From Thioalkalivibrio thiocyanodenitrificans ARhD 1 (GTDB lineage: Bacteria; Pseudomonadota; Gammaproteobacteria; Ectothiorhodospirales; Ectothiorhodospiraceae), in the NCBI RefSeq assembly GCF_000378965.1, contig NZ_KB900537.1:186001-250000 (forward strand): a DNA stretch of 64,000 nt, read 5' to 3'. How positions within the stretch are numbered: the first letter of the stretch is position 1; every line of letters starts with the position of its first letter. The translations under genes and the position numbers were made by a program. The notes under the pieces were generated by a model, which was not told the DNA's origin, did not search any database, and saw nothing but the letters and a program-made list of their open reading frames with translations. Of the stretch, positions 39,947-58,225 are shown piece by piece.

Positions 39947-40023
39947 AGATAAGTGAACCCGGGAAGTTGTCTGAGCGCGCAGCATCCAATGCTGTCGCGG
40001 CCCTGAGGCCAGAGAAGGGGTAG

Positions 40024-41577
40024 AGCCAATCCCCGCTCGCGCGGGGGAGACTGACAAATGCGGTCCTCCGGGCTGCGGATCTGCGGTCGATCCCCGCTCA
40101 CGCGGGGGAGGCCGGGAGCAACTCGATGTCTGGATCCGCGGCCAGGGTCGATCCCCGCTCACGCGGGGGAGACATCCTCAAGAAACACCTCAACGACCCG
40201 GCCTACGGTCGATCCCCGCTCGCGCGGGGGAGACGTGGCGTCGAGGCGGTATAGCTACAAATACAAAGGTCGATCCCCGCTCACGCGGGGGAGACCATGA
40301 CCTGCGCCATGAAGCCACATCTCGTATGGGTCGATCCCCGCTCACGCGGGGGAGACGTTCGACTTGCGTTTTAGGGCATGCACCATGTGGGTCGATCCCC
40401 GCTCACGCGGGGGAGACGCTCCGATCGCCGTACCTTTCCCGCCAATTTCAGGTCGATCCCCGCTCACGCGGGGGAGACCCAGGACGCAGGCGCCGGGCGC
40501 GGTGAGGGTTGGGTCGATCCCCGCTCACGCGGGGGAGACACGCAAGGTGACCCTGGCCGAGGTCCTGAAGGAGGTCGATCCCCGCTCACGCGGGGGAGAC
40601 TCCTCATCGTCATCCGTGCATGCCGCACGGTAGGGTCGATCCCCGCTCACGCGGGGGAGACGCTTCGCGAGGGTTTCGTTGGTGATAATCATCGGGTCGA
40701 TCCCCGCTCACGCGGGGGAGACTATGTGCATAATTAAATCCTCTTAGCTAAGTGGGGTCGATCCCCGCTCACGCGGGGGAGACATCTCGCGATCTCGATA
40801 CGGGAATGCCCCTGGCGGTCGATCCCCGCTCACGCGGGGGAGACATCACCTCGACCGTCGCCCCGGCCAGGGAAGAGGGTCGATCCCCGCTCACGCGGGG
40901 GAGACACCGCAGTAACCCCGCCAAACATTGACATTGGGGGTCGATCCCCGCTCACGCGGGGGAGACTCGGGATTCCGAGCCCAGTACGCTGATGTACTGG
41001 GGTCGATCCCCGCTCACGCGGGGGAGACCGAGAGGCCAAGAACCTCTGCCGCAGCTCTTGGGGTCGATCCCCGCTCACGCGGGGGAGACGAAGACCGGAC
41101 ACGCAAGCTGACTCCAGGCAAAGGTCGATCCCCGCTCACGCGGGGGAGACGTGTGAAGAACTCTCGCTCGAAGAGTGCGCGGCGGTCGATCCCCGCTCAC
41201 GCGGGGGAGACTGAGTATCGGCCGGCAGTCATTGCGGGCGTATCGGTCGATCCCCGCTCACGCGGGGGAGACGTAGTTGGTCGCCTGGAGGGGCGGCTAT
41301 CAGAGGGTCGATCCCCGCTCACGCGGGGGAGACCGCGATCCGATCTCTCGATAGCTTAGCCCCTGCGGTCGATCCCCGCTCACGCGGGGGAGACGCATAA
41401 GCAAAGATGCCGCCGCCAACAATCATGGGTCGATCCCCGCTCACGCGGGGGAGACGTAGTTGGTCGCCTGGAGGGGCGGCTATCAGAGGGTCGATCCCCG
41501 CTCACGCGGGGGAGACGTCGAAGTCACCAAGCTTTGCCGGCTTCGGTGGGGTCGATCCCCGCTCACGCGGGGGAGAC
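40024..41577 (-). CRISPR. Type I-E CRISPR array, 26 repeats and 25 spacers
   Basis: The 28-nt repeat in plus orientation starts GGTCGATCCCCGCTC and ends GCGGGGGAGAC, the reverse complement of a type I-E repeat. Period is 61 bp (33-nt spacers), with one 62-bp step at 40939-41001. The repeats at 40024 and 40085 are degenerate, so the old trailer end is at the left and the leader at the right, next to cas2; transcription is on the minus strand. Spacers 41273-41305 and 41456-41488 are identical (leader-proximal spacers 5 and 2). Frames running through the array are not genes. Cas6e from the adjacent operon would process it. Confidence 0.97.
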
Positions 41578-41634
41578 TCTATCGCATAAGCGACTGTTAC
41601 TACGAAGATTTTACCTAGTTGTTAAAGAGCGTGA
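41578..41634 (-). promoter_or_regulatory. Type I-E array leader
   Basis: 57 bp of more AT-rich sequence between the last repeat and the cas2 stop. Expected to hold the array promoter and the Cas1-Cas2 integration site, although it is short; the array might also be read from the cas operon. Confidence 0.6.
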
Positions 41635-41940
41635 TCAATCAGGGGATGCTGCTCTTCGCGCCAGTAGCAGACCATCAACATCGATCAGGGTGACCGGCGG
41701 ACTGCCGAGCACTCGCATCGCCTGACCTCCAGGCATTTCCTTGTCCTGCCACAGCATGACTATCGACGCCTCTCTTTCGTTGACAAACCATTCCTCAAGT
41801 ACGCCCCACACGCGATCCCTTACTGCGGGGGAGATACGCGGGGCGCTGTACACTCCGGGTGCCACCTCGAGCATAGCTGAGGCCAAAAAACCACGCACAC
41901 GAGGCGATACATTACGAGTCACTACTGCGGTCATCGACAT
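41635..41940 (-). CDS. cas2: Cas2, type I-E
   Basis: 101 aa. TAVVTRNVSPRVRGFLASAMLEVAPGVYSAP matches the I-E (CasB-type) Cas2 rather than the ordinary ferredoxin Cas2; VTLIDVDGLLLARR is at the C-terminus. Structural partner of Cas1 in spacer integration. Overlaps cas1 by 29 bp. Confidence 0.92.
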   Translation of the reverse strand: MSMTAVVTRNVSPRVRGFLASAMLEVAPGVYSAPRISPAVRDRVWGVLEEWFVNEREASIVMLWQDKEMPGGQAMRVLGSPPVTLIDVDGLLLARRAASPD

Positions 41941-42811
41941 CGAGTAACTCCTTAATCCGGTCGATCATTCGAGGAATGATCTTTTCCTGGCGGAATAGTC
42001 GCACTGCTCTGCGTCGCACCTCTCGCTCCATGCCGTCTGCCTTGCCGTCTTTCATCGCCTGAACAGCCCCAAAGGCCAACGGCAAGGTGACGTCTATTCT
42101 CCAGAGGTCCGCGATGTCGAGCGTAAATGCATTGCTCGAGTGCTCATGAATAAATCCCAGAGGAGGTAGCGCGCCAACAGCTGCTACGGAAATATCGGCA
42201 GCCGCCTCAACGAACGTCGCCGCGTGATTGATCGCTTGATTTGGCAGATCCGCAGAGTTCGGGTTCGCCCTGTCGTATCGCCGCCCGCGCCATTCAATTC
42301 CGAACTGTCGCGCCACAAGCTTATAACTTTCCTTGACGCGCGCACCTTCTATACCGCGCAGGGTCTCAATGTCGCGATGTGGCAGTACCCGACCAAACCG
42401 CCAGGCGTATAGCCGTCGAGCCAGTCTCAGACGCTGCTCAGGATCAGCCCAGCTCTGCGCATGCCGGCGCGCAACATCCGAACGGCTCTTTCCCATCGGA
42501 GGCGCGGTGTAGCTCTTAACGCCCCCTTCACCAACAGCTGCAATCAACACGCCGTGGCGAGCACAAAGCCGCAGCACGTCGTGTGTAAGACTGGTGCCAG
42601 GGCCTAGAAGCAGCATGGTGACTGCCTGATACGGAATAGCGTACTGGCCGGCATCCAGAGCCTGGCTTTGCGCTGCCAAAAAGATCAAAGTGCCGTCCTC
42701 CACAGAAAGCCTGCCGTAGTCCAGCCACAACAGTCCATGCCGGTCGGCATGAGGGATGCGTGATGCCGCCAACCCTAACCGCCCATGCAGCAGCCCCGGC
42801 GAAGAGCTCAT
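41912..42811 (-). CDS. cas1: Cas1, type I-E integrase
   Basis: 299 aa. The metal site is present: Glu in RGIEGARVK, His in GFIHEHSSNAFTLDIADLWR, and the following Asp. With Cas2 it integrates spacers at the leader end. Overlaps cas6e by 4 bp. Confidence 0.95.
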   Translation of the reverse strand: MSSSPGLLHGRLGLAASRIPHADRHGLLWLDYGRLSVEDGTLIFLAAQSQALDAGQYAIPYQAVTMLLLGPGTSLTHDVLRLCARHGVLIAAVGEGGVKSYTAPPMGKSRSDVARRHAQSWADPEQRLRLARRLYAWRFGRVLPHRDIETLRGIEGARVKESYKLVARQFGIEWRGRRYDRANPNSADLPNQAINHAATFVEAAADISVAAVGALPPLGFIHEHSSNAFTLDIADLWRIDVTLPLAFGAVQAMKDGKADGMEREVRRRAVRLFRQEKIIPRMIDRIKELLDVDDRSSDS

Positions 42812-43506
42812 GCAGGAGGGGACACTAAAGCCATGCCGAACCCGAAAGTCCTGTGCCGTCCAATGCCTCGCATCAAAAGCTCAGAGAATCGCTGAGGGTC
42901 TGAGATCGACGCTTGCGCCACAAACAGTACGCTTGGGCGCTCGATGGTCGCCAGGCGCTTCGTGCCATCATGGATCCGTCTCTGCATGCTTTGACGCGCC
43001 CGCATACCTCGCAGCTCGATAAGCTCGAAGTCCAAGGCGCCTTCCCAGCGCCGCAGAAACCAGTCCTGATAGACCTCGCCGCGCTTCGGCGCCACGTCAT
43101 CAGCACGATCCAAGGCGCGCAGGAATGCATCCTTCTCCTCCGCGCCACGCCTCTCAACCGGACACGCAAGAACTTCCACTTGCAGCCGCTGACCGACAGT
43201 CCAGCGTCCGGGCATGGGCTTGCTGACTACTCCGTCCGCCTGAAGGGCCGCCCACGCCTCCGGCGGAGCAAATGCCTGCGCATGCTCGAGCAACTGTTCG
43301 TGACTTACGACAGAGTACCCAAGCACTTCTCCTTTTCGCTCAAAAAAGCGAAACGGCTTCGGCGCATGCTCGCCAAAAAGCGTGGTCAGCAATAGGTGCA
43401 GGCTGTATCCAAACCCTTCATCACCCTGAGTAACGCCATGTGATACTGCAAAACGCAGCAGCGCCTGCGGGTTCAAGGGCAACCGAACGAGATGTGACAT
43501 ACTCAT
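42808..43506 (-). CDS. cas6e: Cas6e, crRNA-processing endoribonuclease
   Basis: 232 aa. N-terminal GVTQGDEGFGYSLHLLL supplies the expected His near position 37, and the C-terminal Gly-rich loop is LLMRGIGRHRTFGFGMALV. It cuts within the repeat hairpin and remains in Cascade. Overlaps cas5 by 4 bp. Confidence 0.92.
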   Translation of the reverse strand: MSMSHLVRLPLNPQALLRFAVSHGVTQGDEGFGYSLHLLLTTLFGEHAPKPFRFFERKGEVLGYSVVSHEQLLEHAQAFAPPEAWAALQADGVVSKPMPGRWTVGQRLQVEVLACPVERRGAEEKDAFLRALDRADDVAPKRGEVYQDWFLRRWEGALDFELIELRGMRARQSMQRRIHDGTKRLATIERPSVLFVAQASISDPQRFSELLMRGIGRHRTFGFGMALVSPPA

Positions 43507-44216
43507 GCCATCACCTCCAGGAAACCCTGCGCGTAACGCCGGCTGCCCCGGTGTATGTTGCCCACCCAGTCCCGAAGGTCATACCGCTCCTCGACCTGGG
43601 TAGCCTCACCCTCATCGATCGGCCATTGGGCTTGTATGCGCTCTGGCCGCCGACGCGATCCGATATCTGCAAGCGGCTCCCTTGCCAGCGCTTCTTTCAC
43701 GCTCTCGGCCTGTCTGCGCCCGGCGAACAGCGGTCCCGCCGGCAGGCAATTCTTACGGCCGAAGAACGGGGGTCTCGCGGGCTCTTTCAGAGCCGCCTCC
43801 AAGTCACTGATGGAGAGATCACCTTCACCGTCAAGCGTCAGCGCCACAGTAAGGACCCCGTTCGCCCAGTAATCGCGCTCCCGGATATGCGTACCTTTCT
43901 TCGCATCACCGCCTTTGCGCTTCTCGGCCTGCCCACGCGTAGTCCACCCCGTGTCGAGCAGGAAATCCTGCCCCAGATCCACAGTTTGGTATTCACGCAT
44001 AGGCTCAGGCTCAGCGTCCCAGCGAGCCGCAAAGCGTAGACGATCTTGAAGCTCCTGCTGACGATCAGTGTCGTGATAGCTCCATCCCAGGGTATTACCG
44101 AGCAGCCCGGTGAGCATCGATGCGGCCGGAAACCGCCAAGTGGGGTTTCTCTGATCGACCACGACCGCACCAAAGCTCATCATCGGCGCGTCAAGACGTA
44201 AGATCAGGCAATCCAT
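43503..44216 (-). CDS. cas5e: Cas5e, Cascade subunit
   Basis: 237 aa. MDCLILRLDAPMMSFGAVVVDQRNPTWRFPAASMLTGLLGNTLG is the family's characteristic start. It caps the 5' handle of the crRNA. Overlaps cas6e and lies 18 bp after cas7. Confidence 0.93.
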   Translation of the reverse strand: MDCLILRLDAPMMSFGAVVVDQRNPTWRFPAASMLTGLLGNTLGWSYHDTDRQQELQDRLRFAARWDAEPEPMREYQTVDLGQDFLLDTGWTTRGQAEKRKGGDAKKGTHIRERDYWANGVLTVALTLDGEGDLSISDLEAALKEPARPPFFGRKNCLPAGPLFAGRRQAESVKEALAREPLADIGSRRRPERIQAQWPIDEGEATQVEERYDLRDWVGNIHRGSRRYAQGFLEVMA

Positions 44217-44234
44217 AAAAGCATCTCCGTGTTT

Positions 44235-45419
44235 TTAAGCGCCAAAGATCGCGTCGAGCGTTGCGTTCACGGCTTGCGGGACAGGCTGCTTGTCCGGCAG
44301 CCCCGCGGACCCCTCGAACACCGTAGACATGTGGCGGACCCCTTCGCTCGGGCTTCCGTACATGCCATCGAGCTGCGCCACGTACTCGCCCAGCCGCCCG
44401 ATGGCTTCCCGGCGCAAATCACCGCGAAACGGCAACGCCTCGATGAACGCGTTGCTCAACGCGCGCGGCTGCTGCGCGCCAGTCTCAAACAGCGAGAAGT
44501 CGGCGTGCGCGTAAGGCGCCGTACTGCCGAGCTTGGCTCCGGGGCTTTTTTGGAGGATCGCGGCGATCAGCGCTCTGAGTATCTCGCGAGCCCGCGACGA
44601 ATCCTGGTCTCGCCAGTCCTTGCGCTCGCAACCGGTGAGGTTGGACATCAGCAAGGGAATGTCGACCACTACATATCCGTAGAATACGCCGGCTCCGAGC
44701 TCGCTTTGGTTGGCATGAGCGGCGCCTGTCTCATCATCCCGATTGAGGTCGTCGACCACGGTAAAATAGTCGATCTCGGTATTAGCGGCATGCACTGTAA
44801 GCGCATGCGCCACATGGACCGGGGCGTCGACACGCGCAAGGAGGTCAGAGGTGACCATACGGCCAAACAGGCTCGCGGTCAGTCCCTCCGTGCCCAGCGC
44901 CGACTTGCGCAGAGCCTGGAGATTGTCTTTCCCGATCGCCTCGACGAGCGCCTCGCCAGCTACCTTCGCAAGCTCCTTGTCGACCTTCTCGCTCTGCTCC
45001 TTGCTCGCCACCTCCTGAATATGAGGCTCTTGGCTCACCGCTTTTAGCAGGGAAACGAAGTAATCCGCCTCAGCCAGCCCGAACAGGATCGGCTGATTAA
45101 GGTCTCCTCCCTTCTTGACCCCGCCTTTTACGACAACCGCGGCCAGAGGCTCGATGAGTCGCTTAGCGAGGTCTTCCGGCACGCCCCCGGCGACCGCCTT
45201 GGGCAGGACGGTGCGCGTGAAGAACGAGCGGGTGCGTTGGCCGTCCTGAATCTCGGGCAATTGCGCAGCAAGACTCTCCCGCCAATGGCGCTTCTGGCAC
45301 TGCGAGGATACGCGCAAGCGCATGCTGTTCCCGAAAGGAATGCGCTTCTGTAGGCCGGCATCGTCACGGTTGAGAAGGCTGGCCGGATAGCTGGTCAGTG
45401 TGTGGATCTGCAAGAACAT
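44235..45419 (-). CDS. cas7e: Cas7e (Cse4), Cascade backbone subunit
   Basis: 394 aa. It starts MFLQIHTLTSYPASLLNRDDAGLQKRIPFG, with SSQCQKRHWRESL and the AHALTVHAANTEIDYFTVVDDL block, all typical. Six copies would coat the crRNA. Length normal. Confidence 0.95.
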   Translation of the reverse strand: MFLQIHTLTSYPASLLNRDDAGLQKRIPFGNSMRLRVSSQCQKRHWRESLAAQLPEIQDGQRTRSFFTRTVLPKAVAGGVPEDLAKRLIEPLAAVVVKGGVKKGGDLNQPILFGLAEADYFVSLLKAVSQEPHIQEVASKEQSEKVDKELAKVAGEALVEAIGKDNLQALRKSALGTEGLTASLFGRMVTSDLLARVDAPVHVAHALTVHAANTEIDYFTVVDDLNRDDETGAAHANQSELGAGVFYGYVVVDIPLLMSNLTGCERKDWRDQDSSRAREILRALIAAILQKSPGAKLGSTAPYAHADFSLFETGAQQPRALSNAFIEALPFRGDLRREAIGRLGEYVAQLDGMYGSPSEGVRHMSTVFEGSAGLPDKQPVPQAVNATLDAIFGA

Positions 45420-45450
45420 GGTTCATTACTCCATAAGGATGGTTGATGAT

Positions 45451-45987
45451 TCAGCCGACCGTGTGGCTATGTCGGTAGTAGCTGCTGGCGATTCGCCGGT
45501 TCACCGCCTCACGCTTCTCTGCGTCTCGAGTGAGCAGGTAGTGAGCGAGCTCCGAGAAATTCCAGCGCTCGCCCTTGGCCGCCAGAAACCGCACAGCCGC
45601 CTGGCAAAGTCTCGCGCGCACCTCTTCTGGAGCAGAGAGCATCTGCTCGAGACGCGCCTCAGAGAACCGCGCCTCTGCCAGCGCCTGGCCCAGAGGGCGT
45701 GAGGGTTGGTGTGAGGCGCCGCCGGCCGAAGCCAGCGCCCACGCGACACACGACCACGCCATAGTCTGAGAGTCGGACGGCGGATCCTGACGCAGGTGAC
45801 ACATCCACAACCGGTAGTACGCCAGCGGAGTGGGCTGCCCAGGGGCCCAGCGCTTAAGGGCTGCTCGGTCGCTGCTCGGGTAGTGGGCGCTCGAAAACAG
45901 CGCGGCGATTCGCCCGACCAGCGCGGGCAGGCCTGGTTTGTGCTCGCCACCCTGCTCATCAGGCGCGGCATCGGTAACAGATGTCAT
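45451..45987 (-). CDS. cse2: Cse2 (Cas11), Cascade small subunit
   Basis: 178 aa with the Cse2 pattern ALKRWAPGQPTPLAYYRLW and a C-terminal block LLTRDAEKREAVNRRIASSYY. Stabilises the R-loop. Start overlaps cse1 by 4 bp. Confidence 0.9.
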   Translation of the reverse strand: MTSVTDAAPDEQGGEHKPGLPALVGRIAALFSSAHYPSSDRAALKRWAPGQPTPLAYYRLWMCHLRQDPPSDSQTMAWSCVAWALASAGGASHQPSRPLGQALAEARFSEARLEQMLSAPEEVRARLCQAAVRFLAAKGERWNFSELAHYLLTRDAEKREAVNRRIASSYYRHSHTVG

Positions 45988-47585
45988 GCGGTCTTCTCCA
46001 GATCAGGCGCAGCTTCTGGCAAAAGGTGGTGCTTACGAAGTGCGCGGGTTAGTTCTGCGTGAGAGCGTGTCAGCGCCCTCCAGCGCCTGCTTCCAGGTGT
46101 CGGCAGTCGCTGCACGGCCGTATCCAGAAGCTCCCGGGTTATAGCGACCAGCTCCCTGCGCCAGTTGCTGAATACGGTTTCGGTGGGTTCATCAAAAGCA
46201 CGCCAGAGCGCTGGGTAATAGTGCTGCGGCCAGCTTTGCTCGAAGGCGCTTGCGCTTGCGTCAACCCAAGACTTAATCGCCTTTTTTTGAAAGTCGGCCT
46301 GGCCGGGCCCGCCTTCCGCGAGGATAAAGAGCGCTGTTCGTAGCGCCCCGGCCGCGTTTTTCGCATCAGCGAGAAGATCCTGGGCGCATTTGGCACCGCG
46401 CTCGCGCGCTGAGGCACCCTCCCGGCTAAACAAGGCCGCCTTCACCTTGGCCGGCACGGGTAATTCGAGCCTGTGAAACCCCTCTGTCTTGCCTTGGCCT
46501 CGCGCCAGCGCGCTGGCTATAAGCCACCCCGCGGTGCCGCCCGCCCTGGCTTTTTGCAGAGCCGTGAGTTCGAACCCCTGCTCGAAAAGCAGGTTTGTTA
46601 CAAGCTTTGGGGTAAAGCCGCTTTTTGAGACGTTGAGAGCGACGGGCTTTTCCTTTTGCAGGTTAAGCGGAATCCAGGGATCGCCCACATCGCCTTCCTC
46701 CATGCTCTTGGGCCCGATCTGCCGTCCCTTGCGAGGGGCATTCAGTGCCACCACCCCGCCGGCCGTATTCGGTCGTAGCCGCACCGTCCGACATGCCTCG
46801 ATGAAACAGGGATCCAATCCCTGAAGCGCGTCTTCGTATTGGTGCTCACTTCGGCCCCATGGTTTTACCCACGTGAGCACATGCCCATCGTCACGGTAGC
46901 CGTAACGCATCAAGAGGTCTTTGCGCATATCGCGCACCAGCATCGCCTCTTCCTGAAAACGTCGGGCAGGGTGGCGGTCGGAGGTCCAGGACACAATCGG
47001 GCGATTGCCAGTCCCGGTATACATGCGCACGACACCGTACCCCTTGCCGAGGTAGCCATTTGTGGTCTGGTGCATCAGGAGCGCAAACAGCCAGGCTTCG
47101 ACATCCGCGTCAGATACTCGACAGGCTTTAACGTCGTGATTCCTGGAGGTGAGCACCACATCCAGCTGATCGGGGGTATGCGCTTTGATTTTGATGCTCT
47201 TCACACGACCCTGGTCGTCAAATTTGACACCATAGGCTTCAGCCTCATCCTTCCAGCTGCTCCATGGGTGTTGCAGGAATGCGGGCTTGGTCACGTCCTC
47301 CTCAAGTAGATGCCAGGCCGAAGCCTGCCCCTCGGCCAGCTCAAGAAGCCCGTCGCGCCAATACGAGACGTCAACGGGGAGCGTGTCAGTGGGATGGCGC
47401 GCCAGAATGGCAGCGGCGAGCTGAACCAGAAACACATGCCACGAGTCGCTTTGATGGGCTCGCAGGCCTGTATATCCGTCGATCCGCCCCTCAGAGAGCA
47501 ACGCAAGAACCTCCGGAAGGCTCGCGCTTCGCGGCTCGTCGTCAATCAACACCCCGATCAAGGGGTCAGTCAGTAAGTCGTGCAT
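45984..47585 (-). CDS. cse1: Cse1 (Cas8e), Cascade large subunit
   Basis: 533 aa from ATG 47585 (MHDLLTDPLIGVLIDDE); the frame is open further upstream inside cas3. Contains SLPEVLALLSEGRIDGYTGLRAHQSDSWHVFLVQL and HPWSSWKDEAEAYG blocks of Cse1. Recognises the PAM and recruits Cas3. Overlaps cas3 by 20 bp. Confidence 0.93.
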   Translation of the reverse strand: MHDLLTDPLIGVLIDDEPRSASLPEVLALLSEGRIDGYTGLRAHQSDSWHVFLVQLAAAILARHPTDTLPVDVSYWRDGLLELAEGQASAWHLLEEDVTKPAFLQHPWSSWKDEAEAYGVKFDDQGRVKSIKIKAHTPDQLDVVLTSRNHDVKACRVSDADVEAWLFALLMHQTTNGYLGKGYGVVRMYTGTGNRPIVSWTSDRHPARRFQEEAMLVRDMRKDLLMRYGYRDDGHVLTWVKPWGRSEHQYEDALQGLDPCFIEACRTVRLRPNTAGGVVALNAPRKGRQIGPKSMEEGDVGDPWIPLNLQKEKPVALNVSKSGFTPKLVTNLLFEQGFELTALQKARAGGTAGWLIASALARGQGKTEGFHRLELPVPAKVKAALFSREGASARERGAKCAQDLLADAKNAAGALRTALFILAEGGPGQADFQKKAIKSWVDASASAFEQSWPQHYYPALWRAFDEPTETVFSNWRRELVAITRELLDTAVQRLPTPGSRRWRALTRSHAELTRALRKHHLLPEAAPDLEKTA

Positions 47586-50166
47586 CTTCCTTTTCCAGGC
47601 CGAATCTGGTGTATGTAAATGCGTGCCCCTCGACAGTGATTCGAAACCCGCCCTCAAAGGGCTGAGCCTCGACCTGCTCTGGTGTCGCGAGGCTGTATAG
47701 GTAATATGCGGGGATGTTTACCCTCTCGATCATCGAGCCGATCGGCGACCTCGTCGGCGTCACCAACGCAAGCTCGCAGGAGGGGTCTCCCAGCCGACTG
47801 GTGACCCGCTCCTCGTCGGCGGAATAGTGGAGCTCTCCGAAAGGCTGAGGCTCGAGGGAGTTACGCATGGCCTGGCGGATCTCCGCCAGGTACGCCCCTT
47901 GGATGTACTGAGCGTGTGTCTCCCACACCTGCGGCAGGGCTGCCCACGCCTCAGGGTGCGTGGTTTGCTCGATGCGCTGACGGTTTTGCTCGGGAATGAC
48001 GAGACGAGGGTTGTTTCTCAGGCTGGCCAAGGTGCATTCAAGCACCCGACCGTCTGCATAGACCGAGCCAAGCCCAGCAGGGCCCCTTAGCTGCCCCCCG
48101 GGGTGCAGGTACTCATGCAGCGCTTTACTGGGTACACGAATCAGGACCTTCGGCGTGCGGAAAGACGCCGGACGGTTCTCGCGCAGATGCCTGTGCAGCC
48201 GGCCCAGGCGCTGTAGGAGCACATCCATCGAGGTGATGTCAGTGATCAGCCAATCCGCGTCGATATCAAGGCTCTGCTCCAGGGTTTGTGTGCCGATGAG
48301 CAGCACAGGCCCATCAGGCGATCCCTTGCCGAGCCTGCGGGTAACCTCGGCATCCATCCTCTCCCTGTCCGCGCGGGTGTAGCGCCCATGATGTGGGCAG
48401 CGAACACCGTCGATTGCAAACACCGCGTCGAGAAGCTCAGGAGCGTGCCTGGATAGGTGTGCCTCAACAGCCCTTAGCATGGCCGTCGCGCGCTTCACGG
48501 TGTTGCAAATAACCAGTATTCTGGCGCCCTCGCGCAAAGCGCTCGTGATGTCATCGAGCAACGCATCGTCGTTTTCGAGGGTAGGGCTCAGCTCGACATC
48601 GATCACTCGCCCAGAACGATTCACAAGGACAGCCTGCTCCTGAGCGCGGGTCGTCAGGGACGGGTATGGCCGCTGCGTGGATTGCGCCAACGGGCGCAAC
48701 GTGCGCTCAAAAAAGGCGCTGGCGGCCGACTCACCCAGGGTGGCTGACAACAGCAACACCCATCCGCCACGGGCAACGTGCCCTCGGATGAGCGTCGTAA
48801 GCACCTCGCGCATGTAGGCATCAGAGGCATGAACCTCATCCACCACGAGCAAGTGACGATCCAGACACACGGATCGCAGCAAGCTGTGCTTAACCTTGAG
48901 CACCGATAGCAATGCCTGATCAATGGTGCCTACCGCAACAGGCGCGGCCAGGAACCTCTTGGGGCGTTCAGATGCCCACAAGCGTTCGCGTTGCCGCGAA
49001 AGATTCTCGTCATCCCACAACACCCCTTCCGGATCAGCAAGTACCGGCGCGCCGTCCACGCGCACATAGCCGGGGGCGGCCAACAGTACAGGCCCGGGGC
49101 GGGATTCAGGCTTAAAGGCGGCCTCGATGGCCCGCAGCGTTCTGGAATACAGCTCGCGCGCCGCCACGCGCGTAGGCAGCGCGAAATAAAGCCCGTCAAC
49201 CTTGCCTTCGGCGTAAAGGCGCAGAAACCATGCGAGCGCCGCCTCGGTTTTCCCTGAGCCTGTATCAGACTCCGCAAGTACAAGCTGCGTGCTCTCGTTT
49301 ACCGGTAGCTCGTGGAAGAGCTGGCGCTGCAAGGGAGTAGGCTCGAAACCGAAAATCTCCAGAAACGATGCGATGTTGCGGCACTCGCCCGGGGCCAGCC
49401 CTATCTGCGATAGGGCATGCTCGGCAGCCCTCTGAGCGAAGGCGAACCGGCTCTCATCGGATTCGGGTTTGCACGGGAAGAATTGCCTATCGGAACCCAC
49501 CCAATCGGCCAGCATCAGGAGGCCGGCGAATCGGTGCTGTAGCTCCGGGGTCGCGTCGATACAGGGCGTATCGGCAACGAAGGCGTCTGGAAACAGCTTG
49601 CGAGCCACGCGTGCCATATCCGCCAGCGCAGACATGGGGTCGTAGCCGTCTCTTACCTCCCAATACCTCTCAAGATCACGCAGGCCGGGTTCGCTCCAGC
49701 GAGCCGGCTTTCCGTGATGCGAGAGTGCGGCCAGGAGCATTGCAACAGCCGCCTCCTCGCCCTGGGTGAACCAGCCACAAACCTCCTGCAACAGATCCCG
49801 CCATTCCGCCGGGTAGCGCTGCTGGAGCGCTTCACTTCGCAGTAGTGCAACCGTCTCCGTCACATGCCCGGCCGTGCCGCGCCTATAGGGATTGTTCTTT
49901 ACCTGAAATCCCCAGTTGCATTTCCCAATATCGTGCAAAAACACGAGCACCGCCAGCCGAACCAGCTGCCTGTCATCGAGCGTCTTTCCTTGAGTCAGTA
50001 AGCGTGCGCGCCGCCACGGCTGCCTGACCAACGCCATAAAGACCTGAGCAACATCAATGCTATGGTTGCTCAGTGGTAGCCACTCGTTCTCATCGACCCA
50101 CTTGCCCCAAGGCAGTGTGTATCGTGGAGTGACTTGGGCTTCGCGGCTGCTGGGGTCCTGGTTCAT
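47566..50166 (-). CDS. cas3: Cas3 HD nuclease-helicase, type I-E
   Basis: 866 aa. The HD motif is LVFLHDIGKCNWGFQ near residue 75; the Walker A is ESDTGSGKTEAAL, the DExH box is VVDEVHASDAYM and motif VI is in LLQRLGRLHRH. It degrades target DNA after recruitment by Cascade. It is the first gene of the operon cas3-cse1-cse2-cas7-cas5-cas6e-cas1-cas2. A minus-strand -10-like TATACG sits at 50172-50177, so the transcript may begin at or next to the ATG. Confidence 0.95.
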   Translation of the reverse strand: MNQDPSSREAQVTPRYTLPWGKWVDENEWLPLSNHSIDVAQVFMALVRQPWRRARLLTQGKTLDDRQLVRLAVLVFLHDIGKCNWGFQVKNNPYRRGTAGHVTETVALLRSEALQQRYPAEWRDLLQEVCGWFTQGEEAAVAMLLAALSHHGKPARWSEPGLRDLERYWEVRDGYDPMSALADMARVARKLFPDAFVADTPCIDATPELQHRFAGLLMLADWVGSDRQFFPCKPESDESRFAFAQRAAEHALSQIGLAPGECRNIASFLEIFGFEPTPLQRQLFHELPVNESTQLVLAESDTGSGKTEAALAWFLRLYAEGKVDGLYFALPTRVAARELYSRTLRAIEAAFKPESRPGPVLLAAPGYVRVDGAPVLADPEGVLWDDENLSRQRERLWASERPKRFLAAPVAVGTIDQALLSVLKVKHSLLRSVCLDRHLLVVDEVHASDAYMREVLTTLIRGHVARGGWVLLLSATLGESAASAFFERTLRPLAQSTQRPYPSLTTRAQEQAVLVNRSGRVIDVELSPTLENDDALLDDITSALREGARILVICNTVKRATAMLRAVEAHLSRHAPELLDAVFAIDGVRCPHHGRYTRADRERMDAEVTRRLGKGSPDGPVLLIGTQTLEQSLDIDADWLITDITSMDVLLQRLGRLHRHLRENRPASFRTPKVLIRVPSKALHEYLHPGGQLRGPAGLGSVYADGRVLECTLASLRNNPRLVIPEQNRQRIEQTTHPEAWAALPQVWETHAQYIQGAYLAEIRQAMRNSLEPQPFGELHYSADEERVTSRLGDPSCELALVTPTRSPIGSMIERVNIPAYYLYSLATPEQVEAQPFEGGFRITVEGHAFTYTRFGLEKEDARLTD

Positions 50167-50355: not shown

Positions 50356-50482
50356 AACGCGCAAGGCACACGCAAGCACCGCCAGACCCTTGTTTGACTC
50401 CAACCTGTTGATTAGTAGCTATACACAAGAACGCCTTACCAGAGCCGCCTTGGCTTGAATCCCAAATCAACAGGAGTGTGTG

Positions 50483-51388
50483 ATGATCATTAAAGAGTTG
50501 GATGATGTCGAGCCGTCAATAAAGGCCCTTGAAAGCTTGCGTGCTCGCCCTGGCGTTTCCGCGAGAACAAAAAAGAAGATTGAGCGCGAGATCCGAAACA
50601 TTCGAGCCGGCGCGAAGGCAGAGAAAGGCGCCGCCTATGAAATCAATTTTCACTATGGCGCCAGCAAGAACTGGATGATTATTCATGACCTGCGTCTCGA
50701 GCACGAGAACCTTGTCGCCCAGATCGACCACCTCATCATCAACCGCTTTCTCGATATTGTCGTCTGTGAGAGCAAGAGCTTCTCGGAGGGGATAGAGATC
50801 AATGAACGTGGCGAGTACGCGGCCCTCTACCGAAACACGCCCCGCGGTATCCCTTCTCCGTTCGAGCAGAACGGAAAACACATCGAGGTGCTGCGCGCTG
50901 CATTCAAGTCGGGCTTGGTGAGGCTTCCGAGACGGCTTGGCCTCTCCATCCAACCCTCCTACAGGAACCTCATCCTGATATCCAAATATGCCCAGATCAA
51001 TCGCCCCTCTACAGATATTCCGGATCTCGACAGCCTCATCAAGGTAGACCAGATGAAGCCCTGGCTAGAGAAAATGCTGGATTCGGACAACAATCCGCTA
51101 ACGCTCGGGAAAGTGGTAAGCACAGATACCGTCGAGATGTTCGCGCGCTCGCTTGCCTCGGTCCACCGGCCTCTTGATTTCAATTGGGCTGCCAAATTCG
51201 GGATCTCTGACGATAAATCGAGCCCTCAAAATAAAGATACGCAAAGCGCTGAGGGGAAGAAGAAGAGCAAGCTGGCCTGCGCAAGCTGCACTGTTTCTGT
51301 GCCGTATGTGGTCGCGCAGTTCTGCTGGAAAAACAAGGCGAGGTTTGGAGGGGATGTGTATTGTCGCGACTGTCAGGGGAAGTTCTGA
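50483..51388 (+). CDS. NERD-domain nuclease-like protein with C-terminal zinc ribbon, 301 aa
   Basis: Start at ATG 50483, 7 nt after AGGAG; a GTG precedes it. Residues about 45-160 form a NERD (nuclease-related) domain with the PD-(D/E)xK pattern AQIDHLIINRFLDIVVCESKSF. The C-terminus has CASC...CRDC, a zinc ribbon. Family members occur on plasmids and may act on DNA. It lies between the I-E cas operon and the Cas12m repeats. Function is inferred from motifs. Confidence 0.75.
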   Translation: MIIKELDDVEPSIKALESLRARPGVSARTKKKIEREIRNIRAGAKAEKGAAYEINFHYGASKNWMIIHDLRLEHENLVAQIDHLIINRFLDIVVCESKSFSEGIEINERGEYAALYRNTPRGIPSPFEQNGKHIEVLRAAFKSGLVRLPRRLGLSIQPSYRNLILISKYAQINRPSTDIPDLDSLIKVDQMKPWLEKMLDSDNNPLTLGKVVSTDTVEMFARSLASVHRPLDFNWAAKFGISDDKSSPQNKDTQSAEGKKKSKLACASCTVSVPYVVAQFCWKNKARFGGDVYCRDCQGKF

Positions 51389-51739: not shown

Positions 51740-52061
51740 CATGGGCGGGGTGGTTCGCCGAGCAGGCATTATCATGCCGCGCGCCAGTTCAGAGGCTCGA
51801 ACGTCAGGTAGGTCTCTACTACAAGGCCGCAGAGCGGGCATTATCCCTCACCGGAATCTTCAACGTGTTACACATCTCCTGAAAGTCTCTACTACGAGGC
51901 CGCAGAGCGGGCATTATCAAGAGCCACAGAGCTCGACCGCCCATCCAGACAGAAAGTCTCTACCACAAAGCCGCAGAGCGGGCATTATCACTACGCTCAC
52001 GTTCGTTTCCTTGAACAGCGTAACCGCGTCTCTACTACAAGGCCGCAGAGCGGGCATTATC
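51740..52061 (+). CRISPR. Cas12m-type CRISPR array A (four intact 34-nt repeats plus one degenerate)
   Basis: Repeats are at 51812-51845, 51885-51918, 51956-51989 and 52028-52061, with spacers of 39, 37 and 38 nt. Each starts GTCTCTACTACAAGG or a one- or two-base variant and ends GCAGAGCGGGCATTATC. A degenerate copy ends at 51773 (GCAGGCATTATC), 38 nt before the first intact repeat. CCGC-AGA-GCGG can form a hairpin near the repeat 3' end, so a 5'-handle crRNA in plus orientation is expected for a type V effector. Directly downstream lies a cas12m 3' remnant, convergent with the array. Confidence 0.88.
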
Positions 52062-52095
52062 ACGACAGCTCTTAAAGCTCATTCTCCGGGGTGGT

Positions 52096-52252
52096 TCATG
52101 GGCCCATTTTCGAGCGCTCATTAAAGCTCGGCTGGCTGGAATTATAACGCTTTGATTCTGCTTGCGCCAGCGTCGCCACCACCGGAGCGCTCGCGCTCAT
52201 CGCAGCCTCGAGGATATCGAGTCTGATCCAAACAATCCCGCAGTACCGCCCT
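52096..52252 (-). pseudogene. 3' remnant of a second cas12m gene
   Basis: The minus strand reads ...ILEAAMSASAPVVATL, then SKRYNSSQPSFNERSKMGP and stop at 52096. It aligns with the intact Cas12m C-terminus (ILDSAMGASAPAATTL, SRRYDLTQPNFRERSKTGS). Upstream, DNA similarity continues to about 52252 with a deletion of about 13 bp, then ends. It has the same position relative to its repeats as the intact gene has to array B. The 52253-52472 interval has a palindrome (CGGAAG / CTTCCG around 52370-52388) and no gene I can support. Confidence 0.8.
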
Positions 52253-54486: not shown

Positions 54487-55194
54487 CTATGTCTTCTTGA
54501 ATTGTCTCGATGGTCGGCGGGAGGTACGCACGGCGGGCCTGAGTGGTCCGGTGGGCGCCTTCTCAGGCCTGTTTCCGCCTTTATACGATTCAACCTGGGT
54601 CTGATGCTTCTCCCGCGCCTCTTGATCGGCTCGATGGGCTTGCTTCAAAGCAGCAGCGAAAGCATCGACCTCTGATTGGCTCAGCCGCGAGCTCCTCTGG
54701 CGAAGGATGTACTGCGGAACCCTACCGAGCGACAGCACGCCAGGTATCGGTGTTATGAGCTTACCGAACCCGGAGAGTGCGACCACGTTGAAGAGTTTTG
54801 CAGGCGCAACCCCCAGCACCTCCTGAACGGCTTTCAGGTGGGTCGCATTTTGCTTGAGGGGGCTGTAGAAATAGCGCTTTGAGTGCCGGTAAGCAAGCGC
54901 TTGCATCCATCTCTTATCCTCTTTCGACCCGAAAATTTGACCGTTGAGGTTCTTCACCTCGATGACGAAGATCCCCCTTCGGCAGGCAACGATCAGGTCG
55001 ATCTGGGAGAGCCTCCCGTTAGGACGCTCAAGTAGCACATCGCGAAAGATGCGCGCGTCCTGCCCTTTGAGCTCCTTCTCCAGAAGCTTGTGCAGAACGT
55101 ACTCGGCAAGCCAGCCCTTGCCGTGCGAGTTGTTTGTCTTGAGATAGAAAAGGCCCAGGACACTTGCCAGTGTCGCCTTGATCCAGAACCACAT
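54487..55194 (-). CDS. NERD-domain nuclease-like protein with N-terminal membrane segment, 235 aa
   Basis: Start at ATG 55194 after AAAGGAGG. One transmembrane helix (about residues 4-18, WIKATLASVLGLFYL) precedes a NERD domain with the nuclease pattern SQIDLIVACRRGIFVIEVKNLNG (D..ExK). The C-terminus is a basic disordered tail (RPAVRTSRRPSRQFKKT). The protein would face the cytoplasm at the inner membrane. Second NERD gene in the Cas12m region, but of a different architecture from the one at 50.5 kb. A CTATACA near 55217 is the likely promoter. Confidence 0.75.
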   Translation of the reverse strand: MWFWIKATLASVLGLFYLKTNNSHGKGWLAEYVLHKLLEKELKGQDARIFRDVLLERPNGRLSQIDLIVACRRGIFVIEVKNLNGQIFGSKEDKRWMQALAYRHSKRYFYSPLKQNATHLKAVQEVLGVAPAKLFNVVALSGFGKLITPIPGVLSLGRVPQYILRQRSSRLSQSEVDAFAAALKQAHRADQEAREKHQTQVESYKGGNRPEKAPTGPLRPAVRTSRRPSRQFKKT

Positions 55195-55324
55195 GCGAGA
55201 TCCTCCTTTTAGGCCATGTATAGGCAAAAGGAGGAGCGGGTTGTGCGTTTTGACTGGGATCGAGCTTCTAAGACTGTCTATACTTGCCGTGCCCGCTGAA
55301 GGCTACGACATCCGCACGGTGCAG

Positions 55325-55428
55325 GTCTCCACTACAAAGCCGCGGAGCAGGCATCGTTGTTGGGAAGCGTTTCGGTGCCAAGTTTATCTATCTTGTCTCT
55401 ACTACCAAGCCGCAGAGCAGGCATTGTC
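55325..55428 (+). CRISPR. Cas12m-type array B, first segment (two repeats)
   Basis: Repeats at 55325-55358 and 55395-55428 enclose a 36-nt spacer. The first is imperfect (GTCTCCACTACAAAGCCGCGG... CATCGTT), the second nearly canonical. Upstream, a TATACT -10 (about 55279-55284) and about 40 nt of leader precede the first repeat. The block at about 55291-55320 recurs before the repeat at 56375. Confidence 0.8.
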
Positions 55429-55433
55429 GTTCC

Positions 55434-56165
55434 CTAAAGGGATTTCAGAAACCGCCGCACCTCGGCCACGTGGCGCCGGCTGACCTCCAGGCGCTCCCTG
55501 GTGTCCTTGAGCACCACCTCGAAACATCCCTGCAAGTTCCTCTCCATTCCGGCGAAGCTGTTGCGCGCCACCAGGGCGTTGCGGTGAATGCGCAGGAAGG
55601 CCTCACCGAACTCGTCTTCCAGGGACTTGAGCGCCCCCTCGATCAGCACCTCTCCACCGGCATGGCGCACCGTGACGTACTTCTTGTGCGCCTGGAAATA
55701 GTAGATCTGGCTGACGGGAATCAACTCCAGGTTGCCGCGCACGCGGGCACAGATATGGCTCCGGCTGGAGTCCCCGCCGAGGCCCTCCATGGCGCCCAGC
55801 TGCGCCCGGTTGGGCCGTCTGGCGGCCCCCAGGGCACTCTTGAGACGCTCGCTGCGCACCGGCTTGAGCAGGTAATCCACCGCATGCGACTCGAAGGCCT
55901 CGAGGGCGTGCTCCTCGTAGGCCGTCACGAAGATGATCGCCGGGGGCGTGTCCATTCCGGATATGTGCCTGGCCGCCTCCAGCCCGTCCATGCCGGGCAT
56001 GCGAATGTCCATCAGCACGATGTCGGGTTGCGTCTCCTCCGCCATGCGCACGGCCTGGATGCCGTTCGAGGCACTGCCGCAGGCCTCGTACCCGGAAAAG
56101 GATTGCATCAGGGCCGCCAGCCGCTCCCTGGCCGGCGCCTCGTCGTCTACCACCAGCACTTTCAT
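55434..56165 (-). CDS. AlgR-like LytTR response regulator inserted between two Cas12m repeats
   Basis: 243 aa from ATG 56165 (MKVLVVDDEAPARERLAALM). The receiver domain (1-120) has the acidic pair at the start, the phospho-acceptor Asp in VLMDIRMPGMDG, and the conserved Thr and Lys (VTAYEE, LLKPV). The LytTR domain (about 145-240) has IYYFQAHKKYVTVRH and LRIHRNALVARNSF; the gene looks complete. In Pseudomonas AlgR controls alginate and the fimU-pilV-pilW-pilX-pilY1 operon, which this window also carries. The ORF ends 5 bp from the repeat at 55395-55428 and starts 19 bp from the one at 56185-56218, so the whole gene occupies one inter-repeat interval. No cognate kinase gene is present. Confidence 0.9.
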   Translation of the reverse strand: MKVLVVDDEAPARERLAALMQSFSGYEACGSASNGIQAVRMAEETQPDIVLMDIRMPGMDGLEAARHISGMDTPPAIIFVTAYEEHALEAFESHAVDYLLKPVRSERLKSALGAARRPNRAQLGAMEGLGGDSSRSHICARVRGNLELIPVSQIYYFQAHKKYVTVRHAGGEVLIEGALKSLEDEFGEAFLRIHRNALVARNSFAGMERNLQGCFEVVLKDTRERLEVSRRHVAEVRRFLKSL

Positions 56166-56184
56166 CGGGCTTATACCTAAGGAT

Positions 56185-56290
56185 ATCTCCACTACGAGGC
56201 CGCAGAGCGGGCATTGTCACGTTTCGGATGGACTACGAGCGGGCGCTGGTCATCACGTCTCTACCACAAAGCCGCAGAGCTGGCGTTGCC
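56185..56290 (+). CRISPR. Cas12m-type array B, second segment (two repeats)
   Basis: Repeats at 56185-56218 (starting ATCTCCACTACGAGG) and 56257-56290 (degenerate end, GCTGGCGTTGCC) with a 38-nt spacer. A degenerate last repeat fits a trailer end in plus orientation. Between this and the next repeat are 84 nt: about 50 nt of unique sequence plus a copy of the leader block. Confidence 0.8.
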
Positions 56291-56374
56291 ATGAAAGAAA
56301 AAAGCGTAATGATTTCTTTCGAATCTCGCTCCTCCTGTAAGCCGGCTGAAGGCTACGACATCCGCACGGTCCGG

Positions 56375-56425: not shown

Positions 56426-58225
56426 TCACGCGCGGGCGGAGGCTCTCGAGCCTGTTTTCGAGCGCTCTCGAAAGTTCGGCTGAGTGAGATCATAACGCCT
56501 TGATTTTGCTTTTGCCAACGTAGTCGCCGCCGGAGCACTCGCACCCATCGCGCTATCGAGGATATTGCCGGCCGCATTGAGATCCTGATCCCAAACGGCC
56601 CCGCAGTGCTCGCACGTCCAGATCAGCGAAGCTCTGTCTTTTTGCCCTGTGGCGGCGCCGCATGCCCGACAGGTCGTCGTGGTTTTCCCTGAAACATGCA
56701 CAAGCTGCGCCCCGTGCTTGTTCGCCTGGTGCTCGATCTCATGACGTAGCGCGTGCACCGCAGCGCGTTGACGTTGGGCCCGTGCGGTGGCATGGAGCTC
56801 CGGATCACTTGCGTCCTTGCGCTTTTTCGTCTTCGCGATCTTGCTCAGATCCATATCCTCGATACCGATCACGGCGTAGCGCCCCGCCAGATCCGCGGCC
56901 AGCAGCCGATACACCTCTCGGCGGCTGCGCAGCAGCTTCGCACGAAGATTATCTCGCCACGTCTTTAGGTGCCGGTATCGCTCGTACCAGTGCCGGATCT
57001 CTGCTGGCACCTCCCAGTTCAGGGCGCGAACCGCATCGTGCAGCTCCTTGTCTCGAAGCCACTTGGATCCTTTCCCCGGCGACCAATTGGCCGCAGGCTG
57101 GGTCAACTTCTCAGGAAGTTCGTCGCGGTGTGCGTGGACCCATGCCGCCACCTCCATGGCATTCTCATCCAGGTGCGAGCTCAGGCGCTCCACCTGGTCC
57201 ATACCACGCATCCAGTCTGCGGGCAGGGTGTAGGTGTAAAGACGGCTTTTTGAGTCCGCCACGGTGGCCACGCGCAGGGCCCCGTCCTTCTGGAGGCGCC
57301 ACCCCAGGTCGATGCCGCACGCTTCTACACCAGGGTGCTCTCGCTCCTGTTTCGGGCTTGAGACAGTCAGGCACAGCTGGCCGCGCCAGCGCTCGCCTTC
57401 GCGCTTCCAGACAAGCTGTGCGGCCTTGATCCTCGCGCCCGGGGGCACCGGGCGGTGCAGCACCACCGGGAACTCGATCATGTGGCCGGCTGCGTCCACG
57501 CGCATGCGCGCTGTAACGCGCGCCTCACGCCGGCGCCTGTTGGCTGGGAGGAATTCAACGCCGGGCGGCGGGCGGTCTATCTGCAACTGAGATACATTGC
57601 CGGAAAACAGCTCCTCGGGGGATGCGCCAAGCCCTGATTTGGTGCGCTGAATCTGGACGGCGAGTATGCCGTCGTCTCTGGCCGGATCCGAGGGTCGCAC
57701 GCGGCGCCCCTTCTTGAGGGTTTGCTGGCGGGCTCGCTGGAACGAGTCCAGCACCCGGTTGTAATTCCCCCAGTACAGGCCACACCCCTGGCGCAGACGC
57801 TTGGCCTCCTCTTTCATCCTTGCCTGATGCTCCGAGACAGCCTCCTTGTTTGCCTTGCGCCATTCGCCCGCAAGCCGCCAGACCTCCTTTCGAGCAGCGT
57901 TTTTCTCTGTGATGCGCTCTTTGACCTCGCCGTCCACTGAGGTTGTCCTGCTGCGGGTCTTGGCGCGTTCGGCGTTGCGCCGTTCGATAGCCTCGCGCAC
58001 CGCCTGAGAGGCGTCTATCAGCGCCTGCACGGCCGCCGCGTACTGCGGCGAGTCCGCCTTCATACGATCATCGAGCTCGCGCTCCGCCGCCAGGGTGGCT
58101 TCCACCAGGGCGTCCCAGAAGGCCCGCTGCTTTCGAAGCTCCTCCTGGAGATGAGGATCATCGAGCGGGATTCTGGCTCCGTAGGCGTATACCAGTGCTT
58201 CTGTGTCTTCCTGCTGACGCTTCAT
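56426..58225 (-). CDS. cas12m: Cas12m (type V-M, formerly V-U1) effector with a D-E-D RuvC site
   Basis: 599 aa, close to characterised Cas12m proteins (about 590-600). Recognised from the N-terminal VYAYGARIPL block, a charged helical REC-like region (about 50-145), then CGLYWGNYNRVLDSFQRARQQ and DDGILAVQIQRTKSG, which match Cas12m wedge sequences. RuvC-I is CGIDLGWRL (Asp306), RuvC-II is AVIGIEDMDL (Glu456) and RuvC-III is VWDQDLNAAGNI (Asp548); the zinc ribbon is Cys519, 522, 538 and 541. Characterised Cas12m enzymes bind DNA and block transcription without cutting, and in the best known one acidic residues are lost (HLGWR at RuvC-I). Here all three acidic positions are present. No cas1/cas2 of its own. 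Convergent with array B. TnpB is an alternative but is usually about 400 aa and has no CRISPR repeats. Confidence 0.85.
   Translation of the reverse strand: MKRQQEDTEALVYAYGARIPLDDPHLQEELRKQRAFWDALVEATLAAERELDDRMKADSPQYAAAVQALIDASQAVREAIERRNAERAKTRSRTTSVDGEVKERITEKNAARKEVWRLAGEWRKANKEAVSEHQARMKEEAKRLRQGCGLYWGNYNRVLDSFQRARQQTLKKGRRVRPSDPARDDGILAVQIQRTKSGLGASPEELFSGNVSQLQIDRPPPGVEFLPANRRRREARVTARMRVDAAGHMIEFPVVLHRPVPPGARIKAAQLVWKREGERWRGQLCLTVSSPKQEREHPGVEACGIDLGWRLQKDGALRVATVADSKSRLYTYTLPADWMRGMDQVERLSSHLDENAMEVAAWVHAHRDELPEKLTQPAANWSPGKGSKWLRDKELHDAVRALNWEVPAEIRHWYERYRHLKTWRDNLRAKLLRSRREVYRLLAADLAGRYAVIGIEDMDLSKIAKTKKRKDASDPELHATARAQRQRAAVHALRHEIEHQANKHGAQLVHVSGKTTTTCRACGAATGQKDRASLIWTCEHCGAVWDQDLNAAGNILDSAMGASAPAATTLAKAKSRRYDLTQPNFRERSKTGSRASARA

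Follow-up and report, generated by a model that had tools for sequence, protein, structure and literature searches.

The stretch of DNA analysed here (the window) comprises 64,000 nucleotides of Thioalkalivibrio thiocyanodenitrificans ARhD 1, positions 186001-250000 of contig C2 (301,689 bp). The host assembly consists of three contigs (3.75 Mb), and the 302-kb contig C2 is probably a plasmid. In the window, an intact cas12m gene is followed on its 3' side by an array of five 34-nt repeats (array B), and a second array of four repeats (array A) lies nearby. The repeat core GCCNGCTCNGCGGC occurs nine times in the window, five times in array B and four times in array A, against 0.03 copies expected by chance.

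The successive intervals of array B measure 36, 756, 38 and 84 nt, and the 756-bp gap between R2 and R3 (55429-56184) encloses a complete LytTR response-regulator gene of 732 bp (Table 1). A preliminary description of this DNA had reported a whole, intact gene at spacer position with flanks of only 5 and 19 bp, and we confirmed its coordinates and lengths for the repeats, the gap and the gene. It also gave 36-39 nt as the normal spacer size, which fits the 36- and 38-nt intervals but overlooks a second off-size interval of 84 nt, in which a 34-nt copy of spacer S0 is accompanied by 50 further nt. By eye, this 50-nt segment (56291-56340) contains a AGGAGGAG motif and an A/T-rich inverted repeat. 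Array B thus does not consist of short spacers only, a departure that belongs to the array and not to the effector; we classify the system as type V-M (V-U1) and regard the embedded gene as a variation found in one array.

A broken remnant of the cas12m 3' end (C2:238096-238275 in contig coordinates), with two stop codons, stands ahead of array A and still contains the array leader. Array A and this remnant look like a duplicated locus that lost its effector and kept its array. The two arrays are adjoined by genes that each encode a nuclease-related (NERD) domain (54487-55227 and 50480-51388).

Table 1. Features of the two Cas12m-type arrays and of the embedded gene, in window coordinates.
Feature	Position	Strand	Basis
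cas12m (V-U1/V-M effector, 599 aa)	56426..58225	-	PADLOC and PDB matches, alignment
Promoter-like site TTGGCA-18-TATGAT, within the cas12m 3' end, ahead of array B	56489..56518	-	motif scan
Repeat R5, first after cas12m, 17 nt from the cas12m stop codon	56375..56408	-	pseudoknot intact
Spacer S0b, diverged second copy of S0a	56341..56374	-	91% over 64 nt
Additional 50 nt separating S0b from R4, unlike the repeats	56291..56340	-	
Repeat R4	56257..56290	-	repeat search, fold check
Spacer S2, 38 nt, without convincing target	56219..56256	-	
Repeat R3, directly upstream of the regulator	56185..56218	-	repeat search, fold check
19-nt stub after R3, 5' leader of the regulator	56166..56184	-	
AlgR-like LytTR response regulator, 243 aa plus stop, intact	55434..56165	-	
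5 nt separating the regulator stop codon from R2	55429..55433	-	
Repeat R2	55395..55428	-	repeat search, fold check
Spacer S1, matches csm6 (NE0113 family) of the III-B locus of congener G004	55359..55394	-	
Repeat R1, compensatory pseudoknot change U-A to C-G relative to R2	55325..55358	-	
Spacer S0a, matches integron integrase genes including that of the host chromosome	55291..55324	-	
Array A, four repeats of the array B family, 3' of the cas12m remnant	51812..52065	-	
cas12m 3'-end remnant, leader of array A, broken frame	52090..52217	-	75% to 56438-56565

The effector, its repeats and related arrays

The effector belongs to the Cas12u1/Cas12m family, with matches to Cas12u1 in PADLOC (2e-163) and to Cas12m proteins in the PDB (Cas12m 23vw, 2.7e-53; Cas12m2 8hhl, 3.6e-19). 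Its RuvC residues, read by eye from alignments, are D306-E456-D548, i.e., of the D-E-D type. The Cas12m proteins tested, D-E-D ones included, are reported to bind double-stranded DNA without cutting it (PMC11013384), and the effector of array B probably does the same with its targets. Published accounts also state that Cas12m processes its own pre-crRNA by a cut within the repeat or upstream of it (PMC10442227; PMC11013384), and that the crRNA scaffold of Cas12m2 comprises a pseudoknot and a stem, with a 17-bp guide-target duplex (PMC10442227).

The primary sequence of the array B repeats varies (85-97% to the reference copy), and the crRNA fold is kept in all five. In an alignment of 22 selected repeats, made up of all nine window repeats and 13 picked from four outside arrays (L085, L087, L089, and L111), the pseudoknot-and-stem layout was paired in 153/153 cells (17 distinct repeats by nine pairs). 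Two-sided changes occurred at five pairs, in 26 cells as compared with 7.8 in shuffles; the covariation score was reached by none of 500 shuffles, and sliding the pairing partners destroyed the pairing. When every copy of the four outside arrays is counted, 186 of 189 pairs hold, and the three failures all fall in the last L111 copy, whose 3' end is lost; each of the nine window repeats holds 9/9 pairs. This fold matches the Cas12m2 layout as described in PMC10442227. A dead array can be rejected as far as the repeats are concerned, since all nine keep the Cas12m crRNA pseudoknot, and the best reading of array B is a working CRISPRi-type array. The likeness of R3 to the array A repeats was uninformative (2 versus 3 differences in 30 nt).

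Type V-M systems are described as being enriched on plasmids and as serving plasmid competition (PMC11656645). The present locus resembles plasmid type V-M (V-U1) Cas12m systems in its effector family, in an array placed directly 3' of the effector (as in L085 and L087), in its stem-and-pseudoknot repeat and in T at PAM positions -3 and -2, as given for Cas12m2. It differs from them in the protein-coding gene at spacer position, in the second array and cas12m remnant 3.3 kb away, and in two spacers that match chromosomal genes of the host genus.

The suggestion that such an array might be a general landing site for cargo is not borne out by other Cas12m loci. A search of genome contigs returned no Cas12m loci at first and 20 once it was run with alignment, and 14 plasmid records had a Cas12m match, five of which are among the 37 Cas12m-type loci gathered. 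Thirty-four of these were scanned over 4 kb downstream of the match, leaving out the most distant (L106, L107, and L108), and 12 were judged to hold an array (L085, L087, L089, L092, L111, L112, L113, L114, L116, L117, L118, and L120). None of these 12 recognised arrays has a gene-sized gap, the largest accepted interval being 139 nt (in L092, where an 18-nt core was used for measuring). In L114, a step of 1767 nt is bounded by a 13/18 match that was taken as chance, and repeats in L088, L091, L097, and L098 were judged not to be CRISPR. The scan found no CRISPR array in 22 of the 34 loci, several of which lie on short contigs.

A homologous array, filled or empty, was sought as a further comparison, and neither was found in 47 genomes of the family, in 72,556 plasmid records (searched as DNA) or in viral contigs (searched for the repeat pattern); in the plasmid records, the best 20 of 52 matches all lay within the regulator, and a search of viral contigs for the repeat or the regulator found nothing. 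Among 369 genomes of the class, the host alone has a Cas12u1 match at 1e-40, which leaves few systems for comparison. The literature search, mostly of openly accessible papers, likewise returned no genes inside arrays and no Cas12m spacers against integrases. A gene captured inside a CRISPR array is unusual and so far a single case, and the arrangement seems to have arisen by one capture event rather than as a recurrent design.

Spacer matches to csm6 and integron integrase genes

Array B was queried against genomes G000-G004, and a wider spacer search took in 47 genomes of the family, phages, and plasmids. Spacer S1 matches the congener G004 (C1:1907647-1907682) at 33 of 36 positions, including the first 17/17, with an E-value of 1.9e-9 and TTC on the PAM side. 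The target gene is of the NE0113/Csm6 family (TIGR02584, 4.1e-72; PF09623, 6.2e-50) and adjoins Cmr1, Cas10, Cmr3, and Cmr4 in a type III-B locus. No match to S1 was found in the host genome, which counts against the account of the locus that we prefer below.

The leading 24 nt of spacer S0a are matched at 24/24 positions in G003 (E 5.5e-6), at 23/24 in the host's own chromosome (C1:2909032, E 1.5e-4) and at 23/24 in G004 (position 3085787, E 1.4e-4, with no ORF over 150 aa there), and G004 has a weaker site at 2845928; TTC stands at each. The host target is an integron integrase gene (TIGR02249, 3.4e-137), as is the gene at the weaker G004 site (2.8e-143), and the target gene of G003 was recognised as an integrase by eye. 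Because the S0 match ends after 24 nt, the matched integrase genes are relatives of the source of S0. S0b differs from S0a at 3 of 34 sites and has two further guide mismatches. S0a is possibly a self-matching guide of a probably non-cutting effector. The integron integrase of the host chromosome (L130:3934-5325) carries about 150 additional N-terminal amino acids before the TIGR02249 match (153-461 of 463).

The PAM is TTC at 5/5 distinct S0 and S1 sites (four integrase-type and one csm6), in a check that drew on loci already chosen, many for these matches, and so not on an unbiased sample; since the four integrase-type sites are homologous, the five sites amount to two independent cases. A 5' PAM with T at -3 and -2 is described for Cas12m2, and T- and C-rich PAMs for the family (PMC11013384; PMC10442227).

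For S2 and the array A spacers, nothing convincing was found in the 47 genomes, phages or plasmids, which again counts against our preferred account, and the 19-nt stub after R3 has no target in G000-G004. Several candidates were set aside. A phage match of S0b (28/32, E 0.2) and a match of S0a in G001:C474 (18/20) lack the TT PAM, the former being treated as chance, and an exact 17-nt scan of viral contigs with S1 gave 14 stretches, none with TT at -3/-2, again chance. Matches of array A to G000:C3 (22 nt, E 0.015, running into the repeat) and G036:C59 (83% over 35 nt, E 0.006), of S2 to G023 (E 0.008, without TT PAM) and weaker ones of the S2 region to G005, G022, and others are about at chance level for 47 genomes.

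Origin and junctions of the embedded regulator

The embedded gene encodes a Response_reg domain (1.8e-26) and a LytTR domain (1.2e-19); its best NCBIfam match, BtsR, is below the cut-off (154 versus 246). The host chromosome holds one close copy (C1:2354914-2355645, 92.1% identity, 58 of 732 sites differing), and the copy of the congener G001 is 92.2% identical to that of the array, while the two chromosomal copies are 96.2% identical to each other. Among the relatives found, these host and G001 copies are the nearest to the array regulator. The chromosomal copy lies beside a sensor-kinase gene, with neighbours named by eye as hemC, hemD, and argH, in what we take to be the algZ-algR-hemC locus. 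In the phylogenetic tree, the array, host and G001 copies group together with a support of 100/100, although their order within the group is weak (55.5/69), and the tree supports the array regulator as an orthologue of the regulator beside the histidine kinase gene. The branch of the array copy is long, 0.064 as compared with about 0.02. The array copy is therefore not a recent duplicate of the gene in the host, nor can it be called clearly foreign to the genus, and none of 70 plasmid records with any match to the regulator covers 80% of it.

Short repeats and a chromosomal paralogue could in principle mislead an assembler, and we considered an assembly error at the array. It is highly improbable, since the 58 differing sites separate the array copy from the chromosomal one, the 301,689-bp contig belongs to a three-contig genome and both junctions adjoin distinct repeats.

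The array copy is like the chromosomal AlgR/LytTR regulator in 92% DNA identity over the whole coding sequence and in its receiver and LytTR domains, and unlike it in having no kinase gene beside it, no chromosomal flanks, a weaker ribosome-binding site, and altered LytTR residues. Homology with the chromosomal copies sets in 1 nt before the ATG and extends past the TAG by 1 nt (host) or 3 nt (G001). The chromosomal flanks themselves are still alike between host and G001, with 56 of 60 nt in common upstream of the ATG and 74 of 80 nt in a gapped comparison downstream of the TAG (19 of 60 if ungapped), and the edges of the array copy are therefore true junctions and not the result of flank decay. 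Since homology ends within 1-3 nt of both the ATG and the TAG, what was captured is the coding sequence and nothing more.

Junctions as exact as these are not particularly well explained by repeat recombination, nor by random DNA capture. Recombination through the repeats, by which the array pieces R5-S0b..R3 and R2-S1-R1-S0a would have been joined around the gene, is a tentative proposal for the entry route. The presence of S0 and its repeat on both sides of the gene (91%) fits such a rearrangement, but the two S0 copies differ at 3/34 sites, so S0 may have been duplicated at another time than the capture, and recombination gives no account of homology junctions falling at ATG and TAG. It concerns the route alone and is compatible both with the account that we prefer and with a gene carried passively.

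A second route, in which an integrase moved the gene into the array as a tight cassette of the integron type, appears very unlikely. Its tight flanks make the coding sequence resemble a cassette, the host has an integron integrase, and S0 points at such genes; attC sites, however, are marked by a pair of RYYYAAC/GTTRRRY motifs, and no such pair was seen by eye beside the gene, just 5 nt separate the stop codon from R2, and no attC-like repeat family was recognised in the 8 kb examined beside the chromosomal integrase.

Parsimony counts of substitutions on the array-copy branch, restricted to codons shared by host and G001, gave about 20 nonsynonymous and 21 synonymous changes, compared with a neutral expectation of 29.3 nonsynonymous (P 0.003). 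A stop-free frame persisted in 43% of neutral runs, so that the intact ORF alone is not telling. Eight of 21 array-specific residues are absent from all 19 other sequences compared, among them the changes D160H, Q161K, E177G, and P178A in the DNA-binding LytTR domain, of which the first three lie at mostly conserved positions and the last at a less conserved one. Judging from the sequence, the regulator is intact, evolved under constraint during at least some of its past, and may have relaxed or changed its binding; given the LytTR changes it may also be drifting, which counts against our preferred account.

The simplest rival to that account is a passive passenger, a coding sequence that landed by chance, is slowly losing function and is tolerated without any link to the array, which we regard as possible but the less probable of the two. 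Omega, 0.10 between host and G001, is higher when the array copy is compared with either of them (0.19 and 0.30, respectively), and the long branch (0.064 against about 0.02), the substitutions at mostly conserved LytTR positions, the poor ribosome-binding site and the finding of a gene in no other recognised Cas12m array point the same way. Against a passenger, the ORF is intact and its amino-acid changes are fewer than neutral drift predicts (P 0.003), with the caveats that part of this constraint may predate the capture and that an intact ORF alone says little; the gene is also co-directional with the array and has exact coding boundaries.

Predicted transcription and possible roles of the embedded gene

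The regulator was first described as antisense to the array, which is true only relative to the + strand of the window. In L085 (Methylomonas plasmid) and L087 (Pelobacter plasmid), the array lies 3' of cas12m and the repeats end in ..GAGAC in the direction of cas12m; the same orientation of repeat and array here places the crRNAs on the - strand. The effector gene, the crRNAs and the regulator are thus all co-directional. A promoter-like site (TTGGCA-18-TATGAT), scoring 10/12, is situated upstream of the array on the strand of the crRNAs and makes a long guide-regulator transcript plausible. A -10-like hexamer stands at the same place in both arrays (TATAAT in the leader of array A, TATGAT in array B), with a poorer -35 (CTGGCG) in array A.

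Overall, we lean towards a one-off capture of a genus algR-like coding sequence into a type V-M array, with the regulator probably transcribed within the pre-crRNA. Three signals weigh against this account, in addition to those given above. A promoter scan of the region gave two sites on the - strand as compared with 1.0 in shuffles, a count that does not exceed chance and is weak alone; the strong GGAGG of the chromosomal gene is absent from the start region of the array regulator, where a weak AGG Shine-Dalgarno-like motif was seen by eye 10 nt before the ATG; and the predicted RNA folding of R3, leader and start is no better than in shuffles (z 1.25).

From this arrangement, we infer how transcription, processing, and translation, and any regulatory effect, might proceed under the capture account. 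The promoter at the end of cas12m, together with read-through from cas12m, would transcribe array B into a single RNA, R5-S0-R4-S2-R3-regulator-R2-S1-R1-S0. Cas12m would bind each repeat pseudoknot, and the RNA would be cut on the 5' side of the pseudoknot repeat, which would free the flanking crRNAs and leave the regulator mRNA as one giant "spacer". This mRNA would carry the Cas12m-bound R3 at its 5' end, followed by a 19-nt leader of about one guide length before the start codon, and the bound repeat might damp or couple translation of the regulator.

A more far-reaching version appears improbable as it stands. It would make the array a mixed operon on a mobile replicon, in which guides and regulator mRNA come from one Cas12m-processed transcript with the leader held by a Cas12m-bound repeat; the guides would lower functions of rivals or the host (III-B csm6, integron integrase), and guide production would be coupled to the expression of a host-derived transcription factor.

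Guides directed at host genes have a precedent in the spacer of a type IV-A megaplasmid against host pilN (PMC11656645). The array described here resembles that system in being probably plasmid-borne, in a CRISPR effector predicted not to cut and in a guide matching a host gene; it differs in its Class 2 Cas12m effector and in what its guides match, a congener's csm6 and integron integrases.

A second comparison is with TldR proteins, which follow a flagellin replacement logic. They are described as RNA-guided repressors (PMC13418256), and the present system would be like them in using a TnpB-type protein, guided by RNA and borne on a mobile element, to regulate host genes; unlike in TldR, no guide here matches the homologous host gene. 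A corresponding swap, in which the system silences the host algR and supplies its own copy, would suit a cargo that is a variant of a host regulator and tested Cas12m proteins that bind without cutting. We reject it as hardly credible, since nine spacer strings from the two arrays, compared with 14 kb surrounding the chromosomal regulator, agreed there at no more than 15/20 guide positions and gave no match.

If the regulator is expressed, array B would yield a CRISPR transcript in which one "spacer" codes for a protein and repeat processing operates on an mRNA. It would then also become testable whether type V-M systems steer host functions beyond plasmid competition, given that the guides match an accessory gene of type III-B and integron integrases, the host's own among them. 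If it is not expressed, the locus still documents a coding-sequence-exact capture at spacer position, for which the mechanism is not obvious.

The same contig also holds a type I-E locus (40021-50166) with Cas1e, Cas6e, Cas5e, Cas7e, Cas11e, Cas8e, and Cas3 and an array of at least 24 repeat copies at 61-nt spacing, with one step of 123; this locus could be the adaptation supplier of the V-M array. Tandem repeats spaced at 222 and 438 nt lie at 31534-33141, perhaps in a gene for a long repetitive protein.
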